DNA of 64,000 nucleotides from Romanomermis culicivorax. Taxonomy: Eukaryota; Nematoda; Enoplea; Mermithida; Mermithidae. A program made the translations under genes and the position numbers. Under the pieces are notes generated by a model. That model made no database searches. It had not been told where the DNA came from and saw only the letters and a list, made by a program, of their open reading frames with translations. Positions 27,093 to 64,000 of this stretch are shown here, in pieces; the first letter of the stretch is position 1; every line of letters starts with the position of its first letter. The stretch covers positions 248,001 to 312,000 of the forward strand of contig CAWUHX010000281.1 in NCBI GenBank assembly GCA_963922205.1. The letters are read 5' to 3'.

Positions 27093-29227
27093 ATGGTGCG
27101 ACATATTTTCAAATTAAATCTGATACGAATTTTTGTATTGTTGATACAGCCAAGTGAGTCATATTTTCAAATTTGCACGAATCAGCTTTGGATGCAGATT
27201 TATCTGAAACTCTACCCCAGAGACTGTTTCGATTTGATGAGTTCGGTTGCTGTGAGATTCAGAGACATGTAAGCCAAAATTCAATGCTATACCATGTTTC
27301 CTTTTTATTTGATATTTCAGCAGCACAAATAACACAAAATTGAGCATACTCGACTGACTTCTGACAATTTTTGGTCAGGTATAGAGTTTGGATACTGTAA
27401 TGAATTTTGTCATTCTTCAATCTAGAAGAAAATCATATTTTAAGAGCTGTCATCATCATGGAATGAGCAACAGTTCTACTACCTTGTTGTCAATGACCAT
27501 AAGGAGCACATCTCTTGTAAGCAAGAAGTGGCTGACAAATACGAAACGACCCCATGCCCACTGGTCAATGCCAGCTCTTATTCGACTGACTCTTTCAAAT
27601 TTTATATAAAAAAAGTAGCTGAAGTCACACTTTCTTCAAAAATTGTCCAACAAAATGTCACCGTTGATGAAGTGATGATTTTCAACAAGGCCAGCCAGCG
27701 TGCAATGACTCTGCGGGATTGGCATAATCAAAGTTTCCAGAGCAAAGTCGAACCAGCGAGACCGGAATGTACCCAGAGGCAGATTTTAATTTTGGCCAAA
27801 GCTCAACAAATGAAAAATATGATGACTATACAAGGCCCCGGTGAGCCGCATTACATTGCAGGCTGGGTATTGTGCGAACCATCAGTAGGTGAAAATCAAG
27901 GCAACACAATGTGCGTTTGGAATATGTTGACCGATGGTTTGGAATTCTTGCCATTGAATGGGGTATTGCGCTTCGATTGGGACGAACCTGGAACTGTTAT
28001 CTATTTGCTGAACACCAATCAGAGTATGTCATATCACTGTAAAATACTGACCCATGCTGGCTGCATCCTGGACCAACCCTATCCTAGTGCGGCATCTGGG
28101 TGGGCCACAATGTCAGGGCCGGCCTGGCAGTTGAAGGGCTTCCTGGGTGGCACAGGAGCTATCCGTCTGTTGGTCAATGTCGAGGTAGGTATGACCATAC
28201 CAAGCGAGGCTGGACAAAAAAAGCATGGTTTTGAACCTATCCCTTGGAGCAACTGAGGGGCCATTGTATGGTCACCAGGGTTGAAAGGCTTCCTGGGTGG
28301 CGCCAAAGCTGTCTCACCATTGGCCAATATCAAGGTAGATGTGATAATCCCAACCAAGGGTCAACAAAAATAGCAGAGTTCTGAACCTGTCCTTTGGAGA
28401 ACAGGGGGCCTATGGTTGGTACAGTCACCAGGGTTAAAATGCTTCTTAGTTGGCACCAAACCTGTCTCACCAATGGTCAATGTCGGGGTAGGTGTGACTA
28501 TCCCGACCAGGGCTCAAAAAAATGACCAGCTTCGGAACCTGTGGATTGGCTAAAACATCGATCCAATGGGTGGAATTTTGTATGCTACCATATAGCACGG
28601 CCAGCCCTGGTTCCCGTGTTGGCCCAAATCTCGCTAAAGCCTAAAGCAGCCAGAAAAGTCCAGCCTAGCTTGTTAGAGTCCATTTTTAGAGGTCTGAAAG
28701 GTATGTTCCCAAACGAAGTCTATATATGAAAATATATCACAAAAATTTTTCCAGAACTGATCATCTGTCATAAGCTACATGTTGTTGTATATGACTGTTA
28801 AAATTACATATAAGTAATCATGCAAATGGAAATACCACACAAATCTTCTGATTTGGTTAAATCAGAGAGTAATTCATTCTGGAAAATGGCAAATGATGTG
28901 CTGAATTTTGACAATTTTTCAAGTGTAAAACAAGTCTCAACATCTTTCAAGTCAGTTTAAAAAGAGTAGCAGTTGGTGAGTGCTCAAAAGTACAAATAAC
29001 ATGTCCCGTATTGAAAAATGCATAAATATTTACATTGGTTGATTTTGTCTACCAATGTCAGAATTTTGGTCCCAGGAAATGCCTGTCATTGTTGACTTCA
29101 ATTCAGATGCATTAATTCTTCTTGGATAAATTTAGGAAAGTATTCAAAGATTTTTTCGGTCTGGCTGTATCAACTTACTTAAAGTCTAAAAAAACAAATT
29201 TCACTCTTTGCAGCATTCGACTCATGA
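27093..29227 (+). CDS. Secreted protein gene of an unrecognised family, paralog 1
   Basis: Four exons are proposed: 27093-27153, 27198-27268, 27447-28023 and 29214-29227, about 240 residues. Exon 1 is a signal peptide (MVRHIFKLNLIRIFVLLIQP) ending at GTGAGT. The 44-nt intron 1 ends in GGATGCAG, and exon 2 ends at GTAAGC. Exon 3 holds the conserved body (VTVDEVMIFNKASQRAMTLRD, PHYIAGWVLCEP, WNMLTDGLEFLPLNGVLRF) with several cysteines and NVT, NAS and NQS glycosylation sites. It ends at A|GTATGT. After TTTGCAG the last exon adds four residues and TGA. Exons 1 and 3 and the phase of the end are matched by the paralog at 34112-38351. The acceptor of exon 3 (TTTTAAGAG) is weak. Function unknown; extracellular location inferred. 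Confidence 0.7.
28100..28560. repeat. Three-unit minisatellite, ~150-bp period, in an intron
   Basis: Three diverged units carry GGCTTCCTGGGTGGC (or its variant GCTTCTTAGTTGGC) near 28137, 28287 and 28440. Each is followed by TGTCTCACCAATGGTCAATG-like and GTGACTATCCCGACCA-like segments. They lie in the last intron of the secreted-protein gene and extend a spurious open frame beyond the splice donor at 28024. Confidence 0.7.
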
Positions 29228-34111: not shown

Positions 34112-37100
34112 ATGGTAAAATATGTTCTCAGCTTCAATCTTATCCAAATTATTGTACTTTTGACGCAACCAAGTGAGTTAAGTGCTAGTTAACTGCAGTT
34201 TAAAAGAATAGTGAGTTTTTTTACATAACTGTATGATTATTGCACCAATGTGCAATATCTAAGAATTAACGATGATGGTGATCAGGAGCTGGAATAGTGG
34301 CTGGAGGTGAAAGGGGCAATGGGAGTTCCAGTCCCTGCTTTGTGGAGAAGGCTGGCAAGTATGACATTTGCCTTTCAATCAATAAACAACAAACCACAAT
34401 TCTCCTACTCTGGCAGCAAGGTTGGTGGAGAATGGAAAACAATCTTTTTATTAGACCAAAAACCTGAAGACTCAATTAAAGTGCCTTTATGGCCTACACA
34501 ACACACAAATTGATTTGTAGAAAGTGTTTTTTAAGAAAACAAAAACGAAAATAGGGCAATAAGTACATATTTTATTGTTGATGTATTTTAATATTATGAG
34601 TTTACTGTAAGTGTAGAAATTACAAATAATACCCATTTAGCTGAATTGTGCTATACTACAAATCTTTGACATACCATATTGCGTTTGATCATTACTCAGG
34701 ATGAAGACAACCCTCGGGTATTTACTCATCATAAAGGATTTCTATGCAGAAGTTGCATAATCAATGTTTCAAGTGATAGTACTCAATCCTGCTAGGCTTG
34801 TATAATTGTAAGCACTGATACAAGCTTAGCAGAGATTTAGTGTGCCATGTAGAGAACCAGCCTACATGGGTTACAAGTTCTACAACTTGGTCAAGCTGGG
34901 AAATTTTTTTTGTGTCATTAAAAAATAAATTGTACAATTTTTAACTTTGATCTCAAATAATACACTACCAGGTGAAACTAACTGTCTATGCTGGTCGCAT
35001 CCGGAACGTGTGCAGGATGCACTCAGAATGCGATCAGCACACTATACCGGTAATAAATTTGACAGGCGATGTGCTTGTGTCACACAAAGCCAAAAAATTT
35101 TGTTGATGCTTCCCTATTACCTCCCTATGGAAAGCACACATTATTTACCAGATATAAACAAAAGGTCAATTGTTGTCATACTGTTGGTCGAAACAAAGTG
35201 CATATGCACTACACATTATGAAAAAACCAAGATTGACAGTTATTGCATGAATGTCAATTATTAAGAAAGATGAAAATATTCTTTGTGCTGCCGAAAAAGA
35301 CGTGTTCTGGACCCATTCAGGACGCATCTCGGATGCAAATTTTTGAGGGTTAGTTTCACCTGGCAGTGTGCACACATGTTGCATTAAAAAAACCCTGAAA
35401 CTTTCATGATGAAAAAATTAAAAAATTTTATATTCCAATAATTCTGCATTGTCAAGTATATTGATCACAATTTTCAGGAATTGAAACTACAGTCTGTAGA
35501 TAGAAGCCCAAAGTTCTATATCTCCCACCCTCCCACCACGCTATAATGCTAAGTTTGTAGTTGAAGTTCTTAGATTTGAATTCAATACAATCATGTTAAA
35601 GTCGTTATATGGGTCAGTAGGTTCATCCTCTAATAGTGGCCCACACATGCAATGCAGTCGATGTACCCCTTACACTGGCGTATTAACATAATTTATTCCT
35701 GAATAAAGTTGGAAAACAGACCGAATAAAGATGATAAGAGATGAAGGAATAGTTAACCAAAGGCTCAACTATTTATACGCAGAAAACGATGAGCACAGAA
35801 ATATTGATTGTCGGTGATGGACAAAAAATAATAATACACTAAAATATAGGCAAAATTAACATGCCCAAAAACTATATGCAGGTGCACCAGCATAATGTGC
35901 ATGTGTGAACACATCAGTCATGCACGCCACAGTGTTTGAGACCACATCAAGTAGTCAAATTCACAGCGATATTACATATAAAATTTTAATATTAATTTCC
36001 CACATATTACAAACACATCTTTTCACTTATTGTAACAATAAAAAGCAATGAATGTGCTAAATACATGAGTTAAAAATGTCACACACAAAGTGGTATTAAA
36101 AAAAGTCACACATAACAGGAGGATTGTCAATGAATTGGTGATTACTTAATTGTTGCTATTATTCTGTTTTATTCTCATTGTTTGTATAAATATTCGAATT
36201 TCATAAAAGATTTTTTAAAGATAAATTTCACTAGTTTATGGTCATAAAAGAAAATTTTGTAGCCATGGATTAATATGAATAAAAATATATTCAGTAAATT
36301 ATATTTTTTTTGAACATATAATTCATGTAATATTATATATAATGCATGTAATAATATTTCACCTATTTATCTGTTAACTCTTTTCCCTCATAAATTCACC
36401 TTATGTCCTGATGACCTTATTATTTTTAGCCAAAATCTATTGCAGAAAATCTTTTGATAAAGAATTGAATATAATTGTGGAATAAATGGGGCAGCCATGA
36501 CTTCCACATTGCCATGAATACATGGTGGTCATGGTTAGAACAATCATCATGTTTTTCCAATTTGTGTACTCCTAAACTATTCACAGAGCATGAGATATCC
36601 CAGCAATATTCAAGGGTTTGTAGATAGTTTTTGATGCCAACCTCACCAGACTCATCCCCTAAAGTTATCTAGGTTTGACTAATTGAGTTTCAATTCTTGT
36701 GCACATATCATTTAGAAAAGTCGCTTTTGTGGAACCAGCAGCAGTTCTATTATCTCGTCGTCAACGACCACAAAGAGCAGATCTCATGCAAGCAGGAAGT
36801 AGGCAACACCTACAAAACAGTTCCATGCCCACCAACCAATGACAGTTCCTTATCAACGGATTCTTTCAAATTTTACATAAAAAAGATTGGCCATATAGTA
36901 TTGACATATAAAGATGCTATTAAAAATATAACTGTCGACGAAGTGATGATTTTCAACAAAGCTAGTCAGCAGGCCATGACCTTGCGAGATTGGCAGAATT
37001 ATAGCTTTCCGGCCAAAGTCGAACCAGCAAGACCAGAATGTTCAGATGGGCAGCTCTTAGTTTTAACAAAGGCTCAACAAGTACAAAATTTGGTGACTAC

Positions 37101-38351
37101 ACGAGGCCGTGGTGAACCATACTTCATCGCTGGCTGGGTCTCTTGCGAACCTACATTGGGCGACCAACAACATTACAAAGGAATGTGCACTTGGAATTTG
37201 TTGACTGATGGTTTAGAATTTTTACCATTGAATGGTGTACTGCGCTTTGAGTGGGATCAACCAGAATCGGTTGTCTATCTGCTGAACTCTAATGAAAGTA
37301 CGTAATATCGAGATGTCTGTTAATTTTAGGTGCCCAAAATCACTTGGCCAGAATTTCAGAAGAATTATTCTTGGTGATGGGATAGACTACTTCACCCTTT
37401 AGCAGACTAAGCAGATGTGTTGCTAACTGAGCTTTGAGCAATGTTGATAATTCAGAAACTGTGGTTGTAGTGATGCAAGTATGTATGGGGATGAGAAGCC
37501 AGATGCACCTCTAGAATATCCCCTTGAGCCCTTGAAGTGGAGGCCCTTGGTACAGTCACCAAATGCCCAACTTCACATGGCTTGTGTATAAGAAAAATAA
37601 TGCTTAGTTACCTATAAGTAATTCACTGCAGGCTACTCTGCTTACTGTAGAATGTGTTTCAAGAATGAAAAGGTGTATTTTAATGAGCTTCAGGAGTTCA
37701 ACCTAGAAATTTGTGGCAGGTTATAGTGGTGGTTACTATTATAGTCTTTATTTCTATTAAATGCAGCTGATAGCAAATGTACTCAAATTAATTGATTAAC
37801 CTGCTACTGTTTCATTCAATTTAAATACCTCGTCCATTGTTTCAATCATTACAATCAGTATTTCACTAAAAATTCGAAATTTTCATCCATTTTTGCGCGC
37901 ACTCTTTTATTATCCCTGAAAAATTGTTGTTTCATTTCCAGAAATTTAAAGTATAATAACTACTGCATGCTGCCATGATAAAACATGAATAAAAATCAAT
38001 ATAAATAATCAGAATCACAAAAATTTTCAGGAACAAATTGTGTTTGTCGCTAACAATTGAAATATTAGTCTTAAGCCTTTCAAAAGTTACTCCATAGTAA
38101 GCAAGCTACACAGATGGTTTGAAAATTGCGGTTGTACTACTACAACATTAAGGATGGAAATGGGTTGGAACTGTTTAACATATCTACTAGGTTAAAAAGA
38201 TTATGGGGAAATGGGCTCGAAAAACATACAGCAGTTTTTGAATCCAATCAACTACCCACGGAACTGAATATTAAATTTCTTGACGAGCTCAGAAATAAGT
38301 AGATTAATTTATTCATATTGAATTTTATTTCTTGCAGCAATCGATGGATGA
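34112..38351 (+). CDS. Secreted protein gene of the same unrecognised family, paralog 2
   Basis: Exon 1 (34112-34172) is 61 nt like its paralog and encodes a signal peptide (MVKYVLSFNLIQIIVLLTQP) up to A|GTGAGT. The large exon (36721-37297) is 577 nt, exactly as in paralog 1, with WNQQQFYYLVVNDHKEQ, VTVDEVMIFNKASQQAMTLRD, PYFIAGWVSCEP and LEFLPLNGVLRFEW. It ends at A|GTACGT. The last exon (38338-38351) follows TTTCTTGCAG and adds four residues to a TGA at the same position as paralog 1. No counterpart of the 71-nt second exon was found in the 2.5-kb intron, which has received a MITE and other DNA. The gene may therefore be broken or have a diverged exon. Cysteines and N-glycosylation sites support secretion. 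Confidence 0.6.
34357..34513 (+). other. Protein-like open frame inside the intron of paralog 2
   Basis: The frame is open from 34307, and the segment from the ATG at 34357 to TGA (34511-34513) is markedly protein-like. It contains MTFAFQSINNKPQFSYSGSK, GGEWKTIFLLDQKPEDS and KVPLWPTQ. The AG acceptors nearby are not in phase with exon 1 of paralog 2. It may be a terminal exon of another gene or a retrocopy fragment. No family recognised. Confidence 0.3.
34963..35368. mobile_element. GC-iteron MITE, copy 3 (degraded)
   Basis: CACTACCAGGTGAAACTAAC starts it and GTTAGTTTCACCTGGCAGTG ends it, with TA on the left and TG on the right, so the right target base has mutated. It is 406 bp, in the same orientation as copy 1. 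Its CG iterations are largely converted to TG/CA (GGACGCATCTCGGATGC). It is the oldest-looking of the three copies. Confidence 0.8.
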
Positions 38352-49139: not shown

Positions 49140-49453
49140 CCATAAATTCTACAAAATTTATTTGAAAAAATTCTAAATTTTGAAAAAAATTCTAAATTTT
49201 AAAAAAAATTTAAAATTTAAAAAAATTCAAAATTTCTAAAAAAATTTTAAAATTTAAGAAGCAAACTTTATTTTGAAGAACATTTAAAAAATTCAATACG
49301 ATCGAAAAAAATTTAAAAATTGAAAAAAAATTTTCAATAAATTAAAAAAAAATAAAAAATTTCAAAGAATTCAATTCATAAATAAATTTACTTTAAAAAA
49401 AATTCTAAATTTAAAAAAAAATTTAGAATTTAAAAAAAAAATTTAAAATTTCT
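49140..49453. repeat. AT-only degenerate repeat
   Basis: The sequence is built from AAATTCTAAATTTTGAAAAA-like words with almost no G or C. It ends exactly at the left arm of the TTAGGC-bearing element. Confidence 0.6.
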
Positions 49454-50089
49454 GGTTCCCATATATAATATATAAAGGCTTGAAGTTACGCCCTTGATTA
49501 ACTAGTTTTAGAAATTTGCCACCCATTTTGATTTTTTTTAAGATGGCAATTTTTTTCAAGATGTTATCTTATTTTTTCGAAATGCCGTCAAGCCATCTCG
49601 ATTTTTCCCACGATTATCTTGAGAAAAATGTGATGCATTTCAGAAAATTGCGACGCACTTAAAAAAAGTCGAACATCATAAAAATATCACATCTTGATTT
49701 TTTTGCGATACATCTTGAAACTTTCGCGAAGCATCTTGAAACTTTTGCCATGCGTCTTCAAAAAGATGTTGTGCATCATGCTCGAAGGTAACGATTTTTT
49801 TCATGTGGTAACAAATTTTTTCAAGTAGTAACACTTTTTTTCAAGTATTAACGAGTTTTTTCAAGCGGCCCTTCATTCATTCCATACAAATGACAAACAG
49901 AAATGAATTATCTGCAAAGATCTTGAAATCTTGTGCATTTTTTAATGATTTTTTTGAAATTAACCTGTCTTTACAACAAAGTTAGATACCTTCTGTAAAA
50001 TTGACGAATTTTCAAAAGAGTGATGAAACTGATTTTCTGTGGAGATTAAAAAAATTTACGAAATTTTTATCTAACAAATTTTTCATGAC

Positions 50090-50227
50090 CCGACAATTGA
50101 GCACTGGACAATTGAGCGCCGTCAATTGAGCGCCGACAACTGAGCGCCAAGACAACTGAGCGCCGAGACAATTGAAAGCCAGACAACTGAGCGCCAGACA
50201 ACTGATCGCCGACAACTGAGCACTGTG
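50090..50227. repeat. Minisatellite GACAACTGAGCGCC
   Basis: About ten imperfect units of 12-15 bases (CAATTGAGCGCC, GACAACTGAGCGCC, GACAACTGATCGCC) immediately precede the TTAGGC array. The core CAAYTGAGCG also occurs in the minisatellite at 53995-54215. Confidence 0.85.
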
Positions 50228-50565
50228 GCCTAGGCTTAGGCTTATGTTTATGCTTAGGCTTAGGCTTAGGCTTAGGCTTATGTTTATGCTTAGGCTTAGG
50301 CTTAGGCTTAGGCTTAGGCTTAGGCTTAGGCTTAGGCTTAGGCTTAGGCTTAGGCTTAGGCTTAGGCTTAGGCTTAGGCTTAGGCTTAGGCTTAGGCTTT
50401 GGCTTAGGCTTTGGCTTTGGCTTAGGCTTAGGCTTAGGCTTAGGCTTAGGCTTAGGCTTAGGCTTAGGCTTAGGCTTAGGCTTAGGCTTAGGCTTAGGCT
50501 TAGGCTTAGGCTTAGGCTTAGGCTTAGGCTTAGGCTTAGGCTTAGGCTTAGGCTTAGGCTTAGGC
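50228..50565 (+). repeat. (TTAGGC)n array, nematode telomere hexamer
   Basis: About 56 hexamers of TTAGGC lie on the plus strand. Two early TTATGTTTATGC interruptions and three TTTGGC variants near 50400-50425 are the main deviations. It is interstitial and bounded on the right by the inverted arm of the surrounding element. Long reading frames across it (Lys-Pro or Leu-Ser repeats) are artefacts. Confidence 0.95.
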
Positions 50566-50734
50566 TCAAGATAATCGTGGGAAAAATCGAGATGGCTTGA
50601 CGGCATTTCGAAAAAATAAGATAACATCTTGAAAAAAATTGCCATCTTAAAAAAAATCAAAATAGGTGGCAAATTTCTAAAACTAGTTAATCAAGGGCGT
50701 AACTTCAAGCCTTTATATATTATATATGGGAACC

Positions 50735-51370
50735 CTTCAAAGTAGATTCATGAGGTCAAGGCTTGCTGGCGCAGGATGCCCGTGGTTTTTATCGGAGGGG
50801 GTGGCAGAGGAGGGAGGCTTATTTTGCAAGGGCAACCCTATGCACATATTGGTTTCTCATTAAAACAAATTTTTTTGGGGCTTTTGAGAAAAATGTCAAA
50901 AATTCTTGTTTTTCGCCCAAAATGCGGTAATTTGGGAACCCTATCCAAATTATTGTTTCTTTGTTATGTTGACAAAAGAGAGCAAATGACAAAAAATGTG
51001 CGGTTACATTCGGATCCATTTTATGTTCTTGAAAATCTCGTCAAATTTACGAGTCCTTTCCATTTCATAGTGATGGGTTACTCATTTGATGGAAATGAAC
51101 AGTTGTAAATTATGAAAAACCATCGCTCGTAGCAGACACAACTCATGGGCCCATACTCATAAACTTTATTTTTTGGTGAAAGGGCCACTCATAGCACTCC
51201 TGGACTCGTAATTCCTTGCTGGTAAATTCTGCTTTTTGGTGAGATGGTCATTCCTAGCTCTCTTAACATGGGACTCATAACTCGTGACATTCTAGTTTAA
51301 ATACAGAGTTTTCTGGTGAAACCAGGCCCAGATCACAAGATTTGACATGAATTTAGATTTTTTTTTTGAA
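50735..51370. other. No gene recognised
   Basis: A 110-codon open frame at 50776-51108 has no recognised family or splice context. The phrase ACTCATAAACTTTATTTTTTGG and its variant near 51220 suggest a weak local repeat. Confidence 0.35.
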
Positions 51371-51377
51371 AAATAGG

Positions 51378-51449
51378 GTGCAGCCAGGAGGCGAACCTGG
51401 GTTACCAGCATTCCGGGCTGATGTCCTCACCACTAGACCACCACACTAC
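51378..51449 (-). repeat. tRNA-like sequence (pseudogene or SINE head)
   Basis: On the minus strand GGTCTAGTGGTGAGGAC (A-box region) and CAGGTTCGCCTCC (B box) are correctly spaced. An anticodon arm CAGC/GCTG has loop CCGGAAT and lacks the invariant T33. The phrase GAAAAATAGGGTGCAGCCA flanking it recurs at 51631-51650, so this is probably part of a repeat. Confidence 0.5.
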
Positions 51450-51711
51450 GAGGTGAACCCAGATTAGGGTGCTCCCCTAGGCTACGATTTTGTAGCACAC
51501 AACTCCAATGCTTGGTGGTCGTGAACCTACGACCTTTGGCAAGTAGCAGCATGCCTCCGACCAATGAAGTTGCTAACTTTTTAGAAATGAAAATTATATG
51601 GAATGTTTTGGAGTGAAAATAAGTTTTTGAAAAATAGGGTGCAGCCATCATTCTGATTAAATATATGGAATAGCTGATGAACAACAAAATAATCCAAATA
51701 CGCAGTAGCCC

Positions 51712-52143
51712 CATCTTGGTCTAGTGGTATTCGCCTCTGACTAATAGTATCAGGTATCAGGCTTGATTCCAGGTGTAGCCTCAAAATTGAATTTCTGGTG
51801 ACTGGCGAAGGACCAGATAGCCTTTCATCCTCTCTGGTATAAATAAATTGCGAAGGCGTGCTTGGAGGAATGCTGCTTGCCAGGGTCTACTCAGCCCAGT
51901 TAGCATGTGGATGACAGTGCCGCTAATGAGGAGCCAGGCCTATTCCATTATGAGGTAGGTAGCCAAACGAGTCCTGCTTGTCAGGCAGACTCCAGGCCGT
52001 GGAATGTGGCCTCCACTAGGCGTTAATAAGCACCCAAAGAACGCCTCTCATATAAGGTGGGCACTTGTATGACTGTATAGTCCTGTAAAGCCTACTCTTC
52101 CGGCTATGGGAAAATGGGTAGGTGCACCTGCAAAAATTTGAAA
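51712..52143 (+). mobile_element. tRNA-derived SINE (family 2), copy 2
   Basis: The head is CATCTTGGTCTAGTGGTATT with a degenerate B box (GCTTGATTCC). The body is CTATTCCATTATGAGGTAGG, GTGGCCTCCACTAGGCG, CTCTCATATAAGGTGGGCAC, ending AAATGGGTAGGTGCACCTGC and an A-rich tail. It is collinear with the minus-strand copy at 7840-8275. Confidence 0.8.
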
Positions 52144-52596
52144 AAAATATGCAATATGGGAAAAATGATGCTTACTGGGAACGCGTTACAGGAGGAAGAA
52201 GAATAAGTTTGCAAGATGTTTTTCATGAAAACATCATTAACTTGTTTTCATGTCACATTTGAAGAAATAAAAATTAGATAGATTCAAAAGATAAGGCTAT
52301 AGATGTTGTGTTAAAATGACTCGTGAGAAATAGAGTAGGATTAGTTATATTTAACGAAATTGGGTAAAAACTCGTGGAATACTGTAGTTAGGGGCATAAA
52401 GGAAGTTGGAACCCTCTGCATGTTTAACCTAAAACTGCAACCATTTAGGGTTACATCAAAAAATATGAAACAACATAAAATGCATTTTCTAATATCATGC
52501 ACTATTATGTTATGTACTTATACAATTGCCAATTTTAATATATTGGCCAACTACATAGTGTAAAATAGACAAAAGCAGAATGAAATATAAGCCGCA

Positions 52597-53257
52597 TCAA
52601 TAGCTGCAAGACATTTGAACGTCATGGTGTACGTTGTGGTTCATTGTCACAGAAGAATGAGCATTTCCAGCCGAATCCCAACTCATGTCACCAACAGCCG
52701 GAACTACAGCCTGCTCGAAGGGTTGACATTCCGTTTTGCCGAAATGCAAGCGGTAGTGCCGATTTGCCCAACAGTTGTTCGCTTTTGTGAACACTTTTTG
52801 CAAATTGTAGTCGCCATTATCGTTCGTTTGTACGGCGTCACTGATAGAGGTCCACATGAGCGCTAAAAAGTTTGTAATACAAGGGTAAGGTTCCAAAATT
52901 TGAAACTGATGAAAAAAATAAAACACGGATTTCCATGTAAAATAAGGGAAAATGTGCATTTTCTTCTGATTTCATCTGTCGGATGTAAATCTTGACCCTT
53001 GATCCATACATGAATTAGGCAGAGCTGGCAGAGTGTAGGGAAAGGAATGACATACTTCCAAATCGTTGATCAATGCCCAATTGCAACGTAACGTAGACGC
53101 CACTCTTTGGTCGACCATTGGATGTCACTTTACCAGTGAAGGCGACCGTGCCTTCCATCGCCTTCCATGAGTCTAACATCTCGCAACGTTGACCAGCTGA
53201 TTGCATTATCATCAAGCTCAGGGTGGCCAGAAAGATGGCGAAAATCGAGTTGTTCAT
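52597..53257 (-). CDS. Secreted transthyretin-like protein
   Basis: Exon 1 is 53257-53056 and exon 2 is 52862-52597. The 193-nt intron has a GTATGT donor and a TTTTTAG acceptor; phases agree, giving 155 residues. A signal peptide (MNNSIFAIFLATLSLMIMQS) is followed by a mature domain with FTGKVTSNGRPKSGVYVTL, then NDNGDYNL, NNCWANRHYRLHF and KTECQPFEQ. The early strand with G-x-P-x-x-G-V-x-V-x-L and the later D-x-N-G-x-Y/F-x-L pattern with paired cysteines fit the nematode transthyretin-like family, a large group of secreted proteins mostly of unknown ligand. TTTCAG lies one base before the ATG, so the transcript is probably trans-spliced. The open frame appears intact. The family assignment is by pattern and is moderate. 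Confidence 0.75.
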
Positions 53258-53994: not shown

Positions 53995-54215
53995 GGGATA
54001 TTCTCATGTGAACAACGCCCAAGTGAGCCAATGCCCAAATCAGCGATTTCCATGTAGGCGAATCCCAACACAGCGAATTTCCAAGTGAGCGAATTTCCAT
54101 GTTAGGGAATTCCCAAGTGAGCCATTCCCAATTGAGCGATTCTCATGTGAGCGATTCCCAATTGAGCGAATTCCCAAGTGAGCGAATTACCAATTGGGCG
54201 ATTCCAAACGAGTGA
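53995..54215. repeat. Minisatellite, arm 1 of an inverted pair
   Basis: About 13 imperfect 15-17-base units of the form CCCAAGTGAGCGAATT or CCCAATTGAGCGATT. The inverse array lies at 54600-55010, separated by about 385 bases of T-rich DNA. The CAATTGAGCG core is shared with the array at 50090-50227. Confidence 0.85.
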
Positions 54216-54599
54216 TCGAAAATGTAGTAACACTTTCTTCATATTTTCCTTCTTTACCTTATATGTATTTTTGTATGTATTTTTTTCTTCGTTTTTTGTG
54301 TGTACTGTTAATGTTTTCGTTTGTGTATGTCTCCACGTTTTCATCGTTTGTCCTTGCTTTCTTTTATTTTCGTTTTTCTTTTCATCTACTTTTTTTCTTT
54401 TTGCTCATGAAACTACAAATAAGTCCTTATTTTTAATAAGCATGGTCTCCCTTATAGTTCTTTTACAATTCGGTACGCTCTATTTTCTACATAATTTTAT
54501 CGTTTGTGATTTCTCATCTTAGTTTTTGCTTCCAATCTATCCAGATTTTTCCTTTTTTGTCCTTTTTTCACATTTTTTTCTGTCGCTTACTTCGGTATC

Positions 54600-55010
54600 G
54601 TTCCATTGGGAATCCCCCAATAGGGAATTCGCTCACTTGGGAATGCGCTCATTTGGGAATCGCTCTGCTCGGGATCGCCCACTTGAGAATCGCATACTTG
54701 GGAGTTCGCTTACTTGGGAATCGTTCATATGGGAATCGCACAATTGCGAGTTCGCTCACTTGCGAAATTCTCACCTGGGAATCGCTCATTTGAGAATCGC
54801 TCACTTAGGAATCATTCACTTGGGGATCGCTCAGTTTGGAGTCGCCCAATTGGAAATCTCTCACCTGGGAATCGCCACTTGAGAATCACTGACTTGGGAA
54901 TCGCTCAGTTGGGAATCTTTCACCTGGGAGTCGCCCACTTGAGAACCGCCTACTTAGGAATCACTCACTCGAGATCGCTCAGTTGGGAATCCCTCACTTG
55001 GGAATAGACC
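54600..55010. repeat. Minisatellite, arm 2 of an inverted pair
   Basis: About 25 imperfect units of GGGAATCGCTCACTT, TTGGGAATCGCTCA and related forms, the reverse complement of the 53995-54215 units. Open frames across it (repeated LGIAHL or SLTWES words) are artefacts of the repeat. Confidence 0.85.
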
Positions 55011-57121: not shown

Positions 57122-57250
57122 CTATCTTTTTTGGTCTTTCTGTGGTGCTCTACTTCTATACAAATGTCTGCCCCACTGGTTGTCCAATTCGTCCATTTGC
57201 TTGGCGATTTCCTGATGCAGCTTATCATCAACAGGTGTAGTAAGGCCAGC
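57122..57250 (-). CDS. Terminal exon of an unrecognised gene
   Basis: On the minus strand a CCCTATACAG acceptor opens a phase-0 exon of 42 codons ending in TAG (57124-57122). The peptide reads [36 protein letters not shown] and a basic end QKDQKR. It is hydrophilic with heptad-like spacing, possibly a short coiled coil. The sequence upstream on this strand is a small tandem repeat, and earlier exons were not identified. Confidence 0.4.
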
Positions 57251-58506: not shown

Positions 58507-59158
58507 AGAAAAGAAAAGAAAAGAAAAGAAAAGAAAAGAAAAGAAAAGAAAAGAAAAGAAAAGAAAAGAAAAGAAAAGAAAAGAAAAGAAAAGAAAAGAA
58601 AAGAAAAGAAAAGAAAAGAAAAGAAAAGAAAAGAAAAGAAAAGAAAAGAAAAGAAAAGAAAAGAAAAGAAAAGAAAAGAAAAGAAAAGAAAAGAAAAGAA
58701 AAGAAAAGAAAAGAAAAGAAAAGAAAAGAAAAGAAAAGAAAAGAAAAGAAAAGAAAAGAAAAGAAAAGAAAAGAAAAGAAAAGAAAAGAAAAGAAAAGAA
58801 AAGAAAAGAAAAGAAAAGAAAAGAAAAGAAAAGAAAAGAAAAGAAAAGAAAAGAAAAGAAAAGAAAAGAAAAGAAAAGAAAAGAAAAGAAAAGAAAAGAA
58901 AAGAAAAGAAAAGAAAAGAAAAGAAAAGAAAAGAAAAGAAAAGAAAAGAAAAGAAAAGAAAAGAAAAGAAAAGAAAAGAAAAGAAAAGAAAAGAAAAGAA
59001 AAGAAAAGAAAAGAAAAGAAAAGAAAAGAAAAGAAAAGAAAAGAAAAGAAAAGAAAAGAAAAGAAAAGAAAAGAAAAGAAAAGAAAAGAAAAGAAAAGAA
59101 AAGAAAAGAAAAGAAAAGAAAAGAAAAGAAAAGAAAAGAAAATAAAGAAAAGAAAAGA
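58507..59158 (+). repeat. (AAAAG)n microsatellite, ~650 bp
   Basis: About 130 units of AAAAG with only one visible deviation (AATAAAG near 59140). It is followed by a short (TA)n. Lys-Glu-Arg or Phe-Leu-Ser repeat frames across it are artefacts. Such purity implies recent expansion; the assembled length may be underestimated. Confidence 0.97.
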
Positions 59159-59805
59159 ACGAAAAAAGAAAACACAGGATGTATATATATATATATAATT
59201 GTACTAGGAGGTTAAAGGTCTACTAAATCATCAAGGGTAGCCATACATGAACGTTACTCTGCATATAGAAAATTGATACATTATATTGCATAATGATTTA
59301 TGCTGGTAGATACGATTTTGTATACAGAGTGTTTTCCAGAGCAAACATCGAAAAGTTAGACAGCTGAAGCCATTTAGATCGTAAAACCAATTAGAAATGC
59401 TAAAAAAGTCAAAGGTTCTATAAAACACGGTAGCAAGAGACGCATTACCAAAACAATTAAGGTGGTGATTATTGTTATTTTGATAGTTTTCTGGAATAAC
59501 CTAGAGCCGAGAACCTTCAAAGAAAAACCGGAAAGATTCAACCAAAAAAAGCAGAAAAAACTGGAATGGGTTTAATGAGGGTAAGGAGGTATAAATAGAA
59601 AAAATAGAAGAAGAAGAATCATTCTTATTTTTGCACCAGGGCGATGCCAAAAGACAGTACTATTGGAGGCCGTGTTCATTACATTCATTTCGACATTAAG
59701 AGCTGCCTACGAGGCTTATGGTACACTGATTTTACAAATATTTTGATTTCAAAATTAATATGGATGCTATTTTATAATATTATTATTAATTTAGAGCTGT
59801 TTTTA

Positions 59806-61145: not shown

Positions 61146-62529
61146 TTAAATACTATAATCCATAAAGGTTTCACGATTTTTATCAATCATTACGAGAGAG
61201 TCAAATTCTGTGTATATATGGGCTTCAATACCACCATCTTGTATATCCTCTCCAAAATTCATCTGTAAACTGGCGGTTCCTTCATGTACAAGTTCCCAAA
61301 AGTTACCATCCATACCACAAGGAGTCAAATCAAAAACAAAAACCATGTTATGCGTTGTAAAAGAATTTCGAGTGATTTCATTGCCCTTGTCACCTGTACC
61401 AATTCCTACACCCTCAAATAATTGTACAAAAGTGCGCAAATATTTGTTTTCTTTAGAATTTAACATATAAGGCATTGTAGGTAATTTTGAAGCACAGCTT
61501 GTTATTTTAATTTCCTTTAATCCGAAAGGGGCTTTGATAATAATCACCCCTAGCAGCTGCACCATCAACGAGCGCCACAACGAAACGACGAGGTAAAGGA
61601 CCTGTGAACAATGAGTTCAGAGGAGCGGAGGGACAAATAGTTGTTATGTATAGACTTGTAACATGACATCGACGAATAGGGTATTTTGCAGCTGTATTTT
61701 GTAACATGGAATCAATAGCTAGATTGATATTATGCGCAACTTCAACTTTTGTAATAAATAAAGGCATGCTTTTAACCTTGATTTTATAAGCTTCGTTGTC
61801 AGTAGATATAAATTTTTGCAAGCAAAAATCATCTCTATGTCTGTATAAATCAATTTTCGAAGTACATTGGTTCAGTAGAAAATTTTCTTGCATAAATAGA
61901 TTGGCATGTATAGAAGCCATTATTTCAACAACTGCACTGTTTTTGAACATCTGAACTTTTTCCAAAGCACCCTTGTTTTTCTTTATATCAAGAACATCGC
62001 CATTTTCAAAAGCATAACCAGCAGCTGCAACATGTGTCGACTTAGCATCACAACCATAGTTCAATTCCATTTCCAAATAACATCTGTAAGCATATCTATC
62101 CCCACTAAAATGTTTAAATGTTAAAATTAAAAAACATGAACATACATTTAATTATAAAACTTACCTGTCAGATATTAATTTTTCATTCAAGTACATTTTG
62201 ATCCGTTTAAAAAATGTTTTACCGATCAAATTAATTGGCACCACAAGGTTACCATTGAGACTGTTGTTGGCATCTGCTGTTAATGTGCAAGCAGTACCAT
62301 TAGCTTTCGTAATTTGAATAGTAAAATATATAAAATTTTCTGATAAATCCAGCATTTATGAATCAGGTGAAATAACAAACTCGTAAGGTCCTTCATTAGT
62401 ACAAGGATTCTGGAGCTGAATATCAGACCAAAAACTTCTACGAATAGCAACTTGCATTGGAGGTACAGTAAATAAATCTTATTCCATTTTACTACTAGGA
62501 GACGAAGCAGCATCAATAAATTTACTCAT
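61146..62529 (-). pseudogene. F54H12.2-like, virus-derived capsid-type gene (decayed)
   Basis: It starts at 62529 (ATG overlapping the TGA of the upstream gene) and ends with TAA before 61146. Early DLFTVPPMQVAIRRSFWSD, middle AAKYPIRRCHVTS and LFTGPLPRRFVVALVDG, and late FVFDLTPCGMDG plus VMIDKNRETF follow the order of the animal 'uncharacterized protein F54H12.2-like' family. That family is found in virus-like mobile elements and is thought to be structural. Two in-frame TAA codons break the N-terminal part, near codon 17 and just before 62355. There is also a frame change near 61507-61580. At 62164-62105 a 60-nt segment with GT..AG ends (GTAAGT, TTTTAG) interrupts the frame and looks like an intron. 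The role is inferred from family context. Confidence 0.8.
62105..62164 (-). other. Probable 60-nt intron in the capsid-type gene
   Basis: On the minus strand AG|GTAAGT begins and ACATTTTAG ends an AT-rich 60-nt segment. The flanking coding frames change phase exactly across it, and the residues on both sides fit the family when it is excluded. A deletion or frameshift explanation would not leave both consensus borders. Confidence 0.7.
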
Positions 62530-63052
62530 TTTGAATAGATATCCTTGAAACCGACTACTCTACGTGGAGTCTTTTTTAAAAATGAGGAATGTCCTTTCAG
62601 GTGTTTACGTTTATGTTGTTTCTGATGCTGTTGATGCTGACCATCATTCAACTTTTTATTGCTTTTTATATGTATCGTAGAATTTATATGTTTATGCTTC
62701 CCTAAACCTTTTCCTTTATGAATGCGTTCGCCCGTTTCATGTAATAAGCTGCCAGCGGCGTTTCGTCCATGCTCTGCAACACTTTCTTTAAAAGAACGGC
62801 CTTCTACAACATCGCCTGCAATTTTGGAACCTGCAGCAAGTGCATGCTTTCCTGCAGATTTTAACAAAGGCATAGCTAGACGCCACAAACTCTTGAAAAA
62901 TTACCAACCCCAGCTCCTTGATGTCTATAATAAAACAGGTATGCTGCTCGGAAACCTTCTAAGGTACCACCTAACTGAAATTGGTTATCTTGAATGCTGT
63001 GTTGATAAATATTGATCCAGTAATCAATGGTTTCAGGGATAAATATGGTATG
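62526..63052 (-). pseudogene. Small basic virus-derived protein (pX-like), frameshifted
   Basis: The N-terminal part starts at ATG 63052 and contains GFRAAYLFYYRHQGAG. At about 62893-62898 a single-base frame change in a T run shifts the reading. The C-terminal part continues WRLAMPLLKSAGKHALAAGS, KIAGDVVEGRSFKESV and a Lys/His-rich tail (HQQHQKQHKRKHLKG), ending TGA at 62528-62526. In related elements this small protein sits between the penton-like and F54H12.2-like genes. It carries an amphipathic A-P-L-L-K-S-A-x-K-type helix and a basic, probably nucleic-acid-binding tail. TGA and the next ATG overlap as ATGA. Confidence 0.75.
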
Positions 63053-63259
63053 CATATTTTGCTTCGAAAATCAAAAGGAACAACTAAATTAATTAATTAA
63101 TTAAGAGCGTTTGTGAAAATTCAACCTGATGACAATGTGTCCATATGCAAATGAGTGAATGAATAAATAAAAATTTGATACTATCATGATAGGAATAAAG
63201 GAGTACGTCCGGGGGAATGTAATTTAACTATAACATTCCCAAACTGAGAGGGTATAAGC
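63053..63259. other. Spacer between virus-derived genes
   Basis: AT-rich spacer of about 200 bases with AATTAATTAATTAATTAAG. No gene. Confidence 0.5.
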
Positions 63260-64000
63260 TCATTCATACTGTTTTATTATATTAATTTCGAGTACTGTAA
63301 TTTCTTTTAATTGAATAGGTATATAGTGAGATGTTTCATATAATCGACTCACATTATCTTTGTATTTTCCCTGAACATTTACTATACCTAAAAGCGGTGC
63401 TAAAGTATTTCCAACAATCTGATTTTCAATAATATTACAGTAAACATAAAAACTTTGTAAATCATTTAAATTTGGTGGCTGAATTCCTAACATGTATAAA
63501 TGATTAGTTCCAGGCTCGGCAAGAAAAACAGCTTTGGATGGTGGAATATGTGTGTTAGAATTTTCTGGGGGTTTCTCTCCAACAGTATATAAGTTAATAT
63601 TCACAGCTCTATTTAAAAAATCATCAGCTGTTGCATAGACAGCAGTATTGGTAGCGCTAAATCCAAGAAGTTCCATTAACCGCTTGCTTATATCCATTTT
63701 ACGCAAGATTGTACCACTTTTTATTTTCAAATTAACTAATCCTCTACCATGTTCATCGTATGAAAACATGATTTCAATGTTAGTTCCGGCAATAGCTGCT
63801 CCAATTTTTGCATTCAACTTGTCAATTAATTCAGATATGTTCAGATATGGTAAAGTAATGTTTTTCAAAAACTATAACTTTAATTTTTTTGACCTTATAT
63901 CCAACACCATCCATAATTAGCGTTATTACATTATCTCCCCCATGATTGGTAAATGTAGCCCAACTATAGGGGTATATTATTTCACTTAGCCCTACCTCCC
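63260..64000 (-). pseudogene. Penton-like structural gene of virus origin, frameshifted, 5' end outside the window
   Basis: At the window edge a minus-strand frame reads EVGLSEIIYPYSWATFTN, then changes phase within a T run near 63866-63880. It continues ITLPYLNISELIDKLNAKIG, LMELLGFSATN, NLYTVGEKPPENS, FYVYCNIIENQIVGNTLAPL and SRLYETSHYIPI to TGA at 63260. The order and motifs (an E-V-G-L-x-E-I x-Y-P-x-S-W start, a mid V-Y-C-x-I-I-x-x-Q-I-V-G strand and a late H-Y-I-P-I) match the penton-like protein that accompanies F54H12.2-like genes in virus-like elements of animals. The end is about 30 residues shorter than I would expect. The frame change makes it inactive. Confidence 0.75.

Follow-up and report, generated by a model that had tools for sequence, protein, structure and literature searches.

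How did an array of the telomere repeat TTAGGC come to lie between two almost identical inverted arms in the genome of the mermithid nematode Romanomermis culicivorax? The window that raises this question is a stretch of 64,000 nucleotides (C281:248001-312000, where C281 is contig CAWUHX010000281.1), and the assembly searched comprises 359 Mb in 595 contigs. Two arms of 170 nt each, at 49454..49623 on the plus strand and 50565..50734 on the minus strand, stand 941 nt apart and are 99% complementary, with a single mismatch between them (169 of 170 positions the same), and their length and identity far exceed chance. Between the arms, Tandem Repeats Finder reports a 15-bp minisatellite at 50092-50221 and 56.7 copies of GGCTTA at 50227-50566 (96% matches), and the right arm directly abuts this array. 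The first-pass annotation had described this same arrangement, namely inverted arms one base apart that enclose a minisatellite and about 56 TTAGGC units with the array touching the right arm, and our coordinates and repeat counts agree with it. It had gone on to read the whole as a mobile inverted-repeat element with telomere sequence inside. A carrier of that kind does exist, with ends that match at a few hundred other places in the genome, but the 170-bp arms are not its arms.

A genome search with the 170-bp arm gave at least 43 matching pieces (40 of 100 first-look candidates scored), and 38 arm loci besides the window were fetched along with some 3 kb of flank to either side. With E limited to 1e-5, no inverted partner arm was found at any of these 38 loci, and TTAGGC adjoins the arm at none of them. 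When E was raised to 0.01, an inverted fragment of 28-29 bp, some 2.5 kb from the arm, was found at two loci alone (L030 and L031), and extra same-strand pieces were found at several others. A TTAGGC array lies 2.2-2.4 kb from the arm at L011, the sole such locus among the 38. As a separate observation, L011 holds a degenerate TTAGGC/TTAGAC array close to a palindromic element with minisatellite arms, made of CCCAAGTGAGCGATT units that are inverted on the opposite side (L011 3936-5250). This element is also found at 54018-55005 of the window and resembles in its style the TTAGGC carrier described below. Wider alignments place the arm inside a dispersed repeat of about 1.6 kb, in which it occupies positions 0-170, with an upstream part (U) that reaches to about -615 and a continuation (D) that reaches to about +1020. 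Variants of GGGCCCGGTTTCACCAC stand at the left terminus of this repeat and variants of its complement at the right, at most of the ends printed for 16 copies. With the arm (A) located between U and D, the window is seen to hold A and D on the left and an inverted U and A on the right.

The anatomy of the locus can be followed from left to right with this key. An A+T-rich, low-complexity flank at 49143..49453 ends at the left breakpoint of the rearrangement proposed below (49453/49454). With the low-complexity filter on, the portion of the inverted duplicate that was fetched showed no recognisable counterpart of this flank. The left arm is an internal part of the dispersed repeat, present here without the upstream part, and it runs on into D at 49624..50083 on the plus strand, which the insertion cuts at 50083/50084. 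Beyond the array, the right arm (A') is an inverted duplicate of 49454-49623, and it is followed on the minus strand by U at 50735..51333, which reaches about to the terminus of the repeat (GGGCCTGGTTTCACCA, minus strand). The nearest relative of the arm is a locus on the same contig, L009, at 92% identity and 24 kb away. A and D of the window are 91.8% identical to L009, and the minus-strand stretch at 50735..52882, which extends well past the end of the repeat, is 96.7% identical to C281:320564-322714 within L009. This stretch is part of a larger inverted duplication, in which window positions 57176 down to 45012 match C281:314939-335796 in inverted orientation, the main pieces at 75-96% identity and the right limit being the end of the fetched sequence. 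We note in passing that the two copies lie about 10 kb apart, that 0.6 kb of the window corresponds in position to about 10 kb of the L009 copy with no match, and that the unevenness of their identity suggests that gene conversion later acted on a single stretch of 2.3 kb.

L009 is also informative as an unoccupied site. There U, A, and D run unbroken across the insertion point, where the sequence reads TCTAACAAATTTTT on one side and ACAAAAATTGAG on the other, and an insert of about 600 bp follows only at about +663. L009 and two further loci (L047 and L048) yielded neither a run of at least two TTAGGC units nor any of four exact minisatellite words. At 14 positions a difference exists among the left arm, the right arm, and L009, and the two window arms agree with each other at 13 of them. 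This indicates that the arms are copies of one another made after the inverted duplication or that they have been kept alike by gene conversion.

The array and the minisatellite have relatives of their own. A search with window positions 50060-50260, which span the minisatellite and run into the beginning of the array, gave 563 first-look candidates, and all 40 that were scored could be aligned. The 39 scored places besides the window have 80-92% identity, with alignments that begin at query position 19-33 and continue to its end. An inverted second minisatellite lies close by at 16 of the 40 places, with no inverted partner there at the remaining 24. Complete copies were fetched from 10 of the 16 places with both arms visible, a choice that makes the sample favour intact copies. 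All ten share a common build of tip, minisatellite arm, TTAGGC array, spacer, inverted minisatellite arm, and tip, within a total length of 455-546 bp. The 5' arm (147-177 bp) consists of CATGACC, then CCG, GACAACTGAGCGCC-like units, and a closing TGGC. The array that follows is 48-186 bp long, is made of whole hexamers in every copy, and includes TTATGT and TTATGC variants; its opening, TTAGGCTTAGGCTTATGTTTATGC, gives the hexamers TTAGGC, TTAGGC, TTATGT, and TTATGC in eight of the ten copies, with L057 and L065 deviating. On the 3' side the spacer is CTCAGTAAATGAAAAAAACGCTCAATTATAATGCATTAAATAG or a close variant, and the inverted minisatellite arm ends in GGTGCACC. The element ends are CATGACCCGACAATTGAG and CAATTGTCGGTGCACC, and all ten copies have asymmetric 7-bp tips, CATGACC at one end and GGTGCAC (read inward) at the other. 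The inverted arms show a Foldback-type trait in being composed of short tandem units, the number of which varies between copies.

The Mutator superfamily makes target duplications of 8-11 bp. A duplication of about 9 bp, as is usual there, is exact at nine of nine positions for eight of the ten copies and holds at eight of nine for L064, while L058 has five of nine in register and an 8-bp duplication shifted by one base. The best score among 90 mismatched pairs of left and right flanks, which served as a control, was six of nine. In pairwise comparison the 5' arms of the ten copies average 96.3% identity and their 3' sides 95.5%. The 5' arm of the window has a mean identity of 92.5% to the ten, an indication that the window copy is older or more worn. 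Array variants that are common to independent insertion sites show that the array travels with the element and, together with the 9-bp duplications, that it is cargo. On this sequence evidence, the TTAGGC array belongs to a short transposable element.

Seen against this family, the window copy is recognisable and incomplete. Its 5' tip stands at 50084, immediately 3' of CAAATTTTT (50075..50083, plus strand), which lies within D and is presumably the 5' target-site copy. The Foldback-type 5' arm occupies 50084..50229 on the plus strand, 146 bp that start with the tip CATGACC and continue in GACAACTGAGCGCC-like units. In the frame of the element itself, the array covers 50230..50565 on the plus strand, or 336 bp and 56 hexamers, 48 of which are TTAGGC, and it opens with the family variants CTAGGC, TTAGGC, TTATGT, and TTATGC before overlapping the right 170-bp arm by about 2 bp (CT). 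At the junction at 50565, the spacer, the 3' arm, the second target copy, and the remainder of D are all absent. The window copy is a rearranged, truncated member of the family that lacks its right arm. We consider it very probable that an element of Foldback/MULE type was inserted in the dispersed repeat and that a local rearrangement afterwards made the 170-bp arms; judged from the sequence, these arms are most likely a product of that rearrangement and not the ends of the element.

The course of events would have been as follows. One copy of the element would have entered the dispersed repeat, as the anatomy of the locus suggests. A later small rearrangement, most likely an inversion of local extent or else a fold-back template switch, would have produced a 170-bp inverted duplication at one breakpoint. 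The same event would have deleted the 3' half of the element, so that the array came to abut the host repeat in an inverted copy, and the pair of 170-bp arms was created. Read on the minus strand, the rearranged order would be U and A followed by an inverted block of array, 5' arm, D, and A. An inversion with a duplicated breakpoint segment could account for this order in one step, and the outcome of a fold-back template switch would be identical. This reconstruction concerns one locus, and L009, which is free of the insertion, does not represent the state just before the rearrangement.

The family is numerous. The 22-base 5' end has 274 matches in the genome at up to 2 mismatches (143 + 131), and the 43-base 3' junction has 216 at up to 3 mismatches (103 + 113), each with a control of 0; as pattern matches, these counts miss diverged copies, and one match need not be a complete element. 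All of the first 100 3' junctions in the list are exact, suggesting recent spread. In 16 pairs on contigs C1-C50, the distance from 5' end to 3' junction ranges from 219 to 2434 bp, so array length appears to vary widely, and other insertions may lengthen some of the copies. Among the matches listed, perfect runs of at least 30 units stand beside marks of the element at C4:1251326 and C11:570155.

TTAGGC is much more widespread than the element. Five perfect TTAGGC units have 25,431 overlapping matches in the genome (12,229 + 13,202; reversed control 0 and 7), and 471 array starts follow a base that is not C (238 + 233; control 0 and 0), which together make internal TTAGGC arrays a common feature of this genome. 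Some arrays among the matches listed, which extend to C11, exceed 30 perfect units. Matches to 30 perfect units are uneven between the strands, with 844 overlapping matches forward and 3171 reverse, perhaps due to a few very long arrays. The share of clusters that fall in recognisable copies of the element was 19 of the 77 listed on C1-C50, the other 58 lying outside by strict ends (5' ends were accepted with at most 1 mismatch and 3' junctions only when exact, all on C1-C50). A second listing, based on matches to five perfect units, placed 3 of 15 clusters in the element. For these shares, starts less than 1 kb apart on one strand were merged, and marks of the element counted when they lay no more than 2.5 kb away on that strand. 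Each cluster list represents the first 100 places of its search; that of 77 holds only arrays preceded by a non-C base, and that of 15 covers C1-C3 and, on C4, apparently just the plus strand as far as 1.36 Mb. In addition, five TTAGGC clusters had been drawn when the family was not yet recognised, each having G or A in front of its array, and all five have neither element ends, nor the 3' junction, nor arm units. The TTAGGC clusters of this genome are mostly not explained by the element, and the others need other explanations.

Those other clusters give some weight to a different account of the window, in which the array was inserted during repair of a double-strand break, by telomerase or as a templated insertion, and the minisatellite is a bystander. 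Such insertions have been reported in primates and rodents and, by the title of the reports, in human and horse (PMC2246262, PMC7215372), and clusters free of arms do exist in this genome, L051 being one example. However, the junction between minisatellite and array recurs at many loci, and the copies read have array variants in common along with their 9-bp duplications. We find repair very unlikely as the source of the window array, and a plain healed break was rejected for it in view of the recurrent junction, the common build, and the duplications. Break repair may have brought TTAGGC into the element in the first place, and it may account for other clusters. A repeat of this kind could also have spread through segmental duplication or gene conversion, as the large inverted duplication around the window locus and another TTAGGC locus that occurs in three copies together with its flanks (L053, L054, and L055) both illustrate. 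At the ten element loci, however, the sequence diverges at the tips, and the 9-bp flanks that are duplicated differ from one locus to the next, which makes spread other than by transposition extremely improbable. The threefold locus was itself tried as a second mobile carrier. L053 has exact 30-bp inverted arms around TTAGGC, and the arm has 69 matches in the genome at up to 3 mismatches. Its six exact matches form three inverted pairs that each enclose TTAGGC (L053 860-1340, C32:980178-980730 for L054, and C325:344954-345416 for L055), with arrays of different length. The three loci have flanks in common, 900 bp of one flank being 97-100% identical at the three places, and such sharing indicates one segment present three times; the candidate was rejected as what looks like segmental duplication, unlike the present family. 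At up to 3 mismatches the same 30-mer also gives five inverted pairs that span 125-129 bp. Another locus, L049, contains short TTAGGC arrays within a complex, palindromic, poly-G-rich repeat (787-1770).

Two further readings concern the 170-bp arms alone. The evidence for them comes from the assembly and not from reads, which leaves a slim chance that the inverted arms are an assembly artefact. Against an artefact stand the one-base difference between the arms, the unlikeness of their outer flanks, the interruptions in the array, and the match of the right side to another locus at 96.7% over 2.1 kb. The remaining reading would make the 170-bp arms the true ends of a mobile element after all, as their enclosure of the array in near-identical inverted copies would suggest. 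It is almost certainly wrong, and the arm was rejected as an element end: the arm is internal to the 1.6-kb repeat, all 38 other loci read (40 of 100 first-look candidates scored) are without an inverted partner at E up to 1e-5 or adjoining TTAGGC, and the repeat runs on beyond the right arm to its own terminus. Insertion of a TTAGGC-carrying element, with later rearrangement of the window copy, is the reading that we retain.

If that reading holds, the element would be moved in trans by a MULE (Mutator-superfamily) transposase that recognises its repeated arms, and its array would lengthen and shorten through slippage or recombination once inserted. The MULE domain has at least 122 matches in the genome (150 of 248 candidates scored), several of them in open frames of several hundred codons. 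No MULE gene with arms of this family was found, and a comparison by eye with the listed MULE matches showed none within 10 kb of any of 100 listed 5' ends (of 274). Eight ORFs of the window were compared with Pfam, and nothing was found above the cut-off. Elsewhere in the window, two ORFs about 9 kb apart (27528-28256 and 36697-37305) are alike by eye and have no Pfam match over the cut-off, and four minus-strand ORFs at 61146-63868 likewise have no Pfam match. One of these four, at 61507-62076, may resemble proteins of nematode Maverick/Polinton elements. An AGAAA array of 133 units (98% matches) lies at 58507-59172. As for the cargo, it could be functional at chromosome ends, as telomere seeds, as templates for telomerase-independent upkeep, or as sites of breakage and healing, a proposal that we regard as unlikely. 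Were it so, a transposon would repeatedly provide internal telomere seeds and drive rearrangements, and the window array, which ends at a breakpoint, would be one case.

Among known systems, the closest in build is Tm1 of the root-knot nematodes (Meloidogyne), a group of Mutator/Foldback elements described with 9-bp target duplications, MITE-like forms, asymmetric 7-bp tips outside the inverted repeat, and arms of 13-15-bp tandem units that vary in number (PMC3169594). The family represented in the window is like Tm1 in its 9-bp duplications, asymmetric 7-bp tips, inverted arms of tandem units, and MITE-like forms, and its build matches Mutator/Foldback elements of the Tm1 type. The likeness is one of build only and is not claimed for the Tm1 transposase (Phantom subclass). 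It is unlike Tm1 in the sequences of its units and tips, in its central TTAGGC array, and in its 216-274 matching ends, a section heading of the Tm1 paper announcing low copy and no evidence of recent transposition. The string "telomer" has no match in the main text of that paper (PMC3169594). Tetris, a Foldback element of Drosophila virilis, makes 8-10-bp duplications and has internal tandem repeats that seed longer arrays (PMC4079207); it shares the Foldback structure and the internal tandem repeats with the present family, yet the unit that it amplifies is its own TIR-220 and not a telomere repeat. The telomere-bearing elements (TBE) of the ciliate Oxytricha (PMC4724952) are likewise DNA transposons named for telomere sequence, a likeness by description, but they belong to Tc1/mariner. 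In the literature searched, we found no Foldback or MULE element that carries TTAGGC. The last comparison is with the interstitial telomeric sequences (ITS) of C. elegans, where 1,229 tracts are cited and the abundance of such tracts on animal chromosome arms is called a mystery. DNA synthesis at uncapped ends is reported to start from the C. elegans tracts, and telomere upkeep to use them as templates (PMC9071541). Both genomes have internal TTAGGC tracts; no transposon carrier is named in the parts of that account drawn on here, whereas 19 of the 77 listed clusters of the present genome lie in one transposon family. Given the roles reported for the C. elegans tracts, a mobile source of TTAGGC could affect karyotype change. 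A TTAGGC-bearing transposon family, with its target duplications and an empty site, would offer a concrete and testable route by which interstitial tracts can spread without breaks or fusions.
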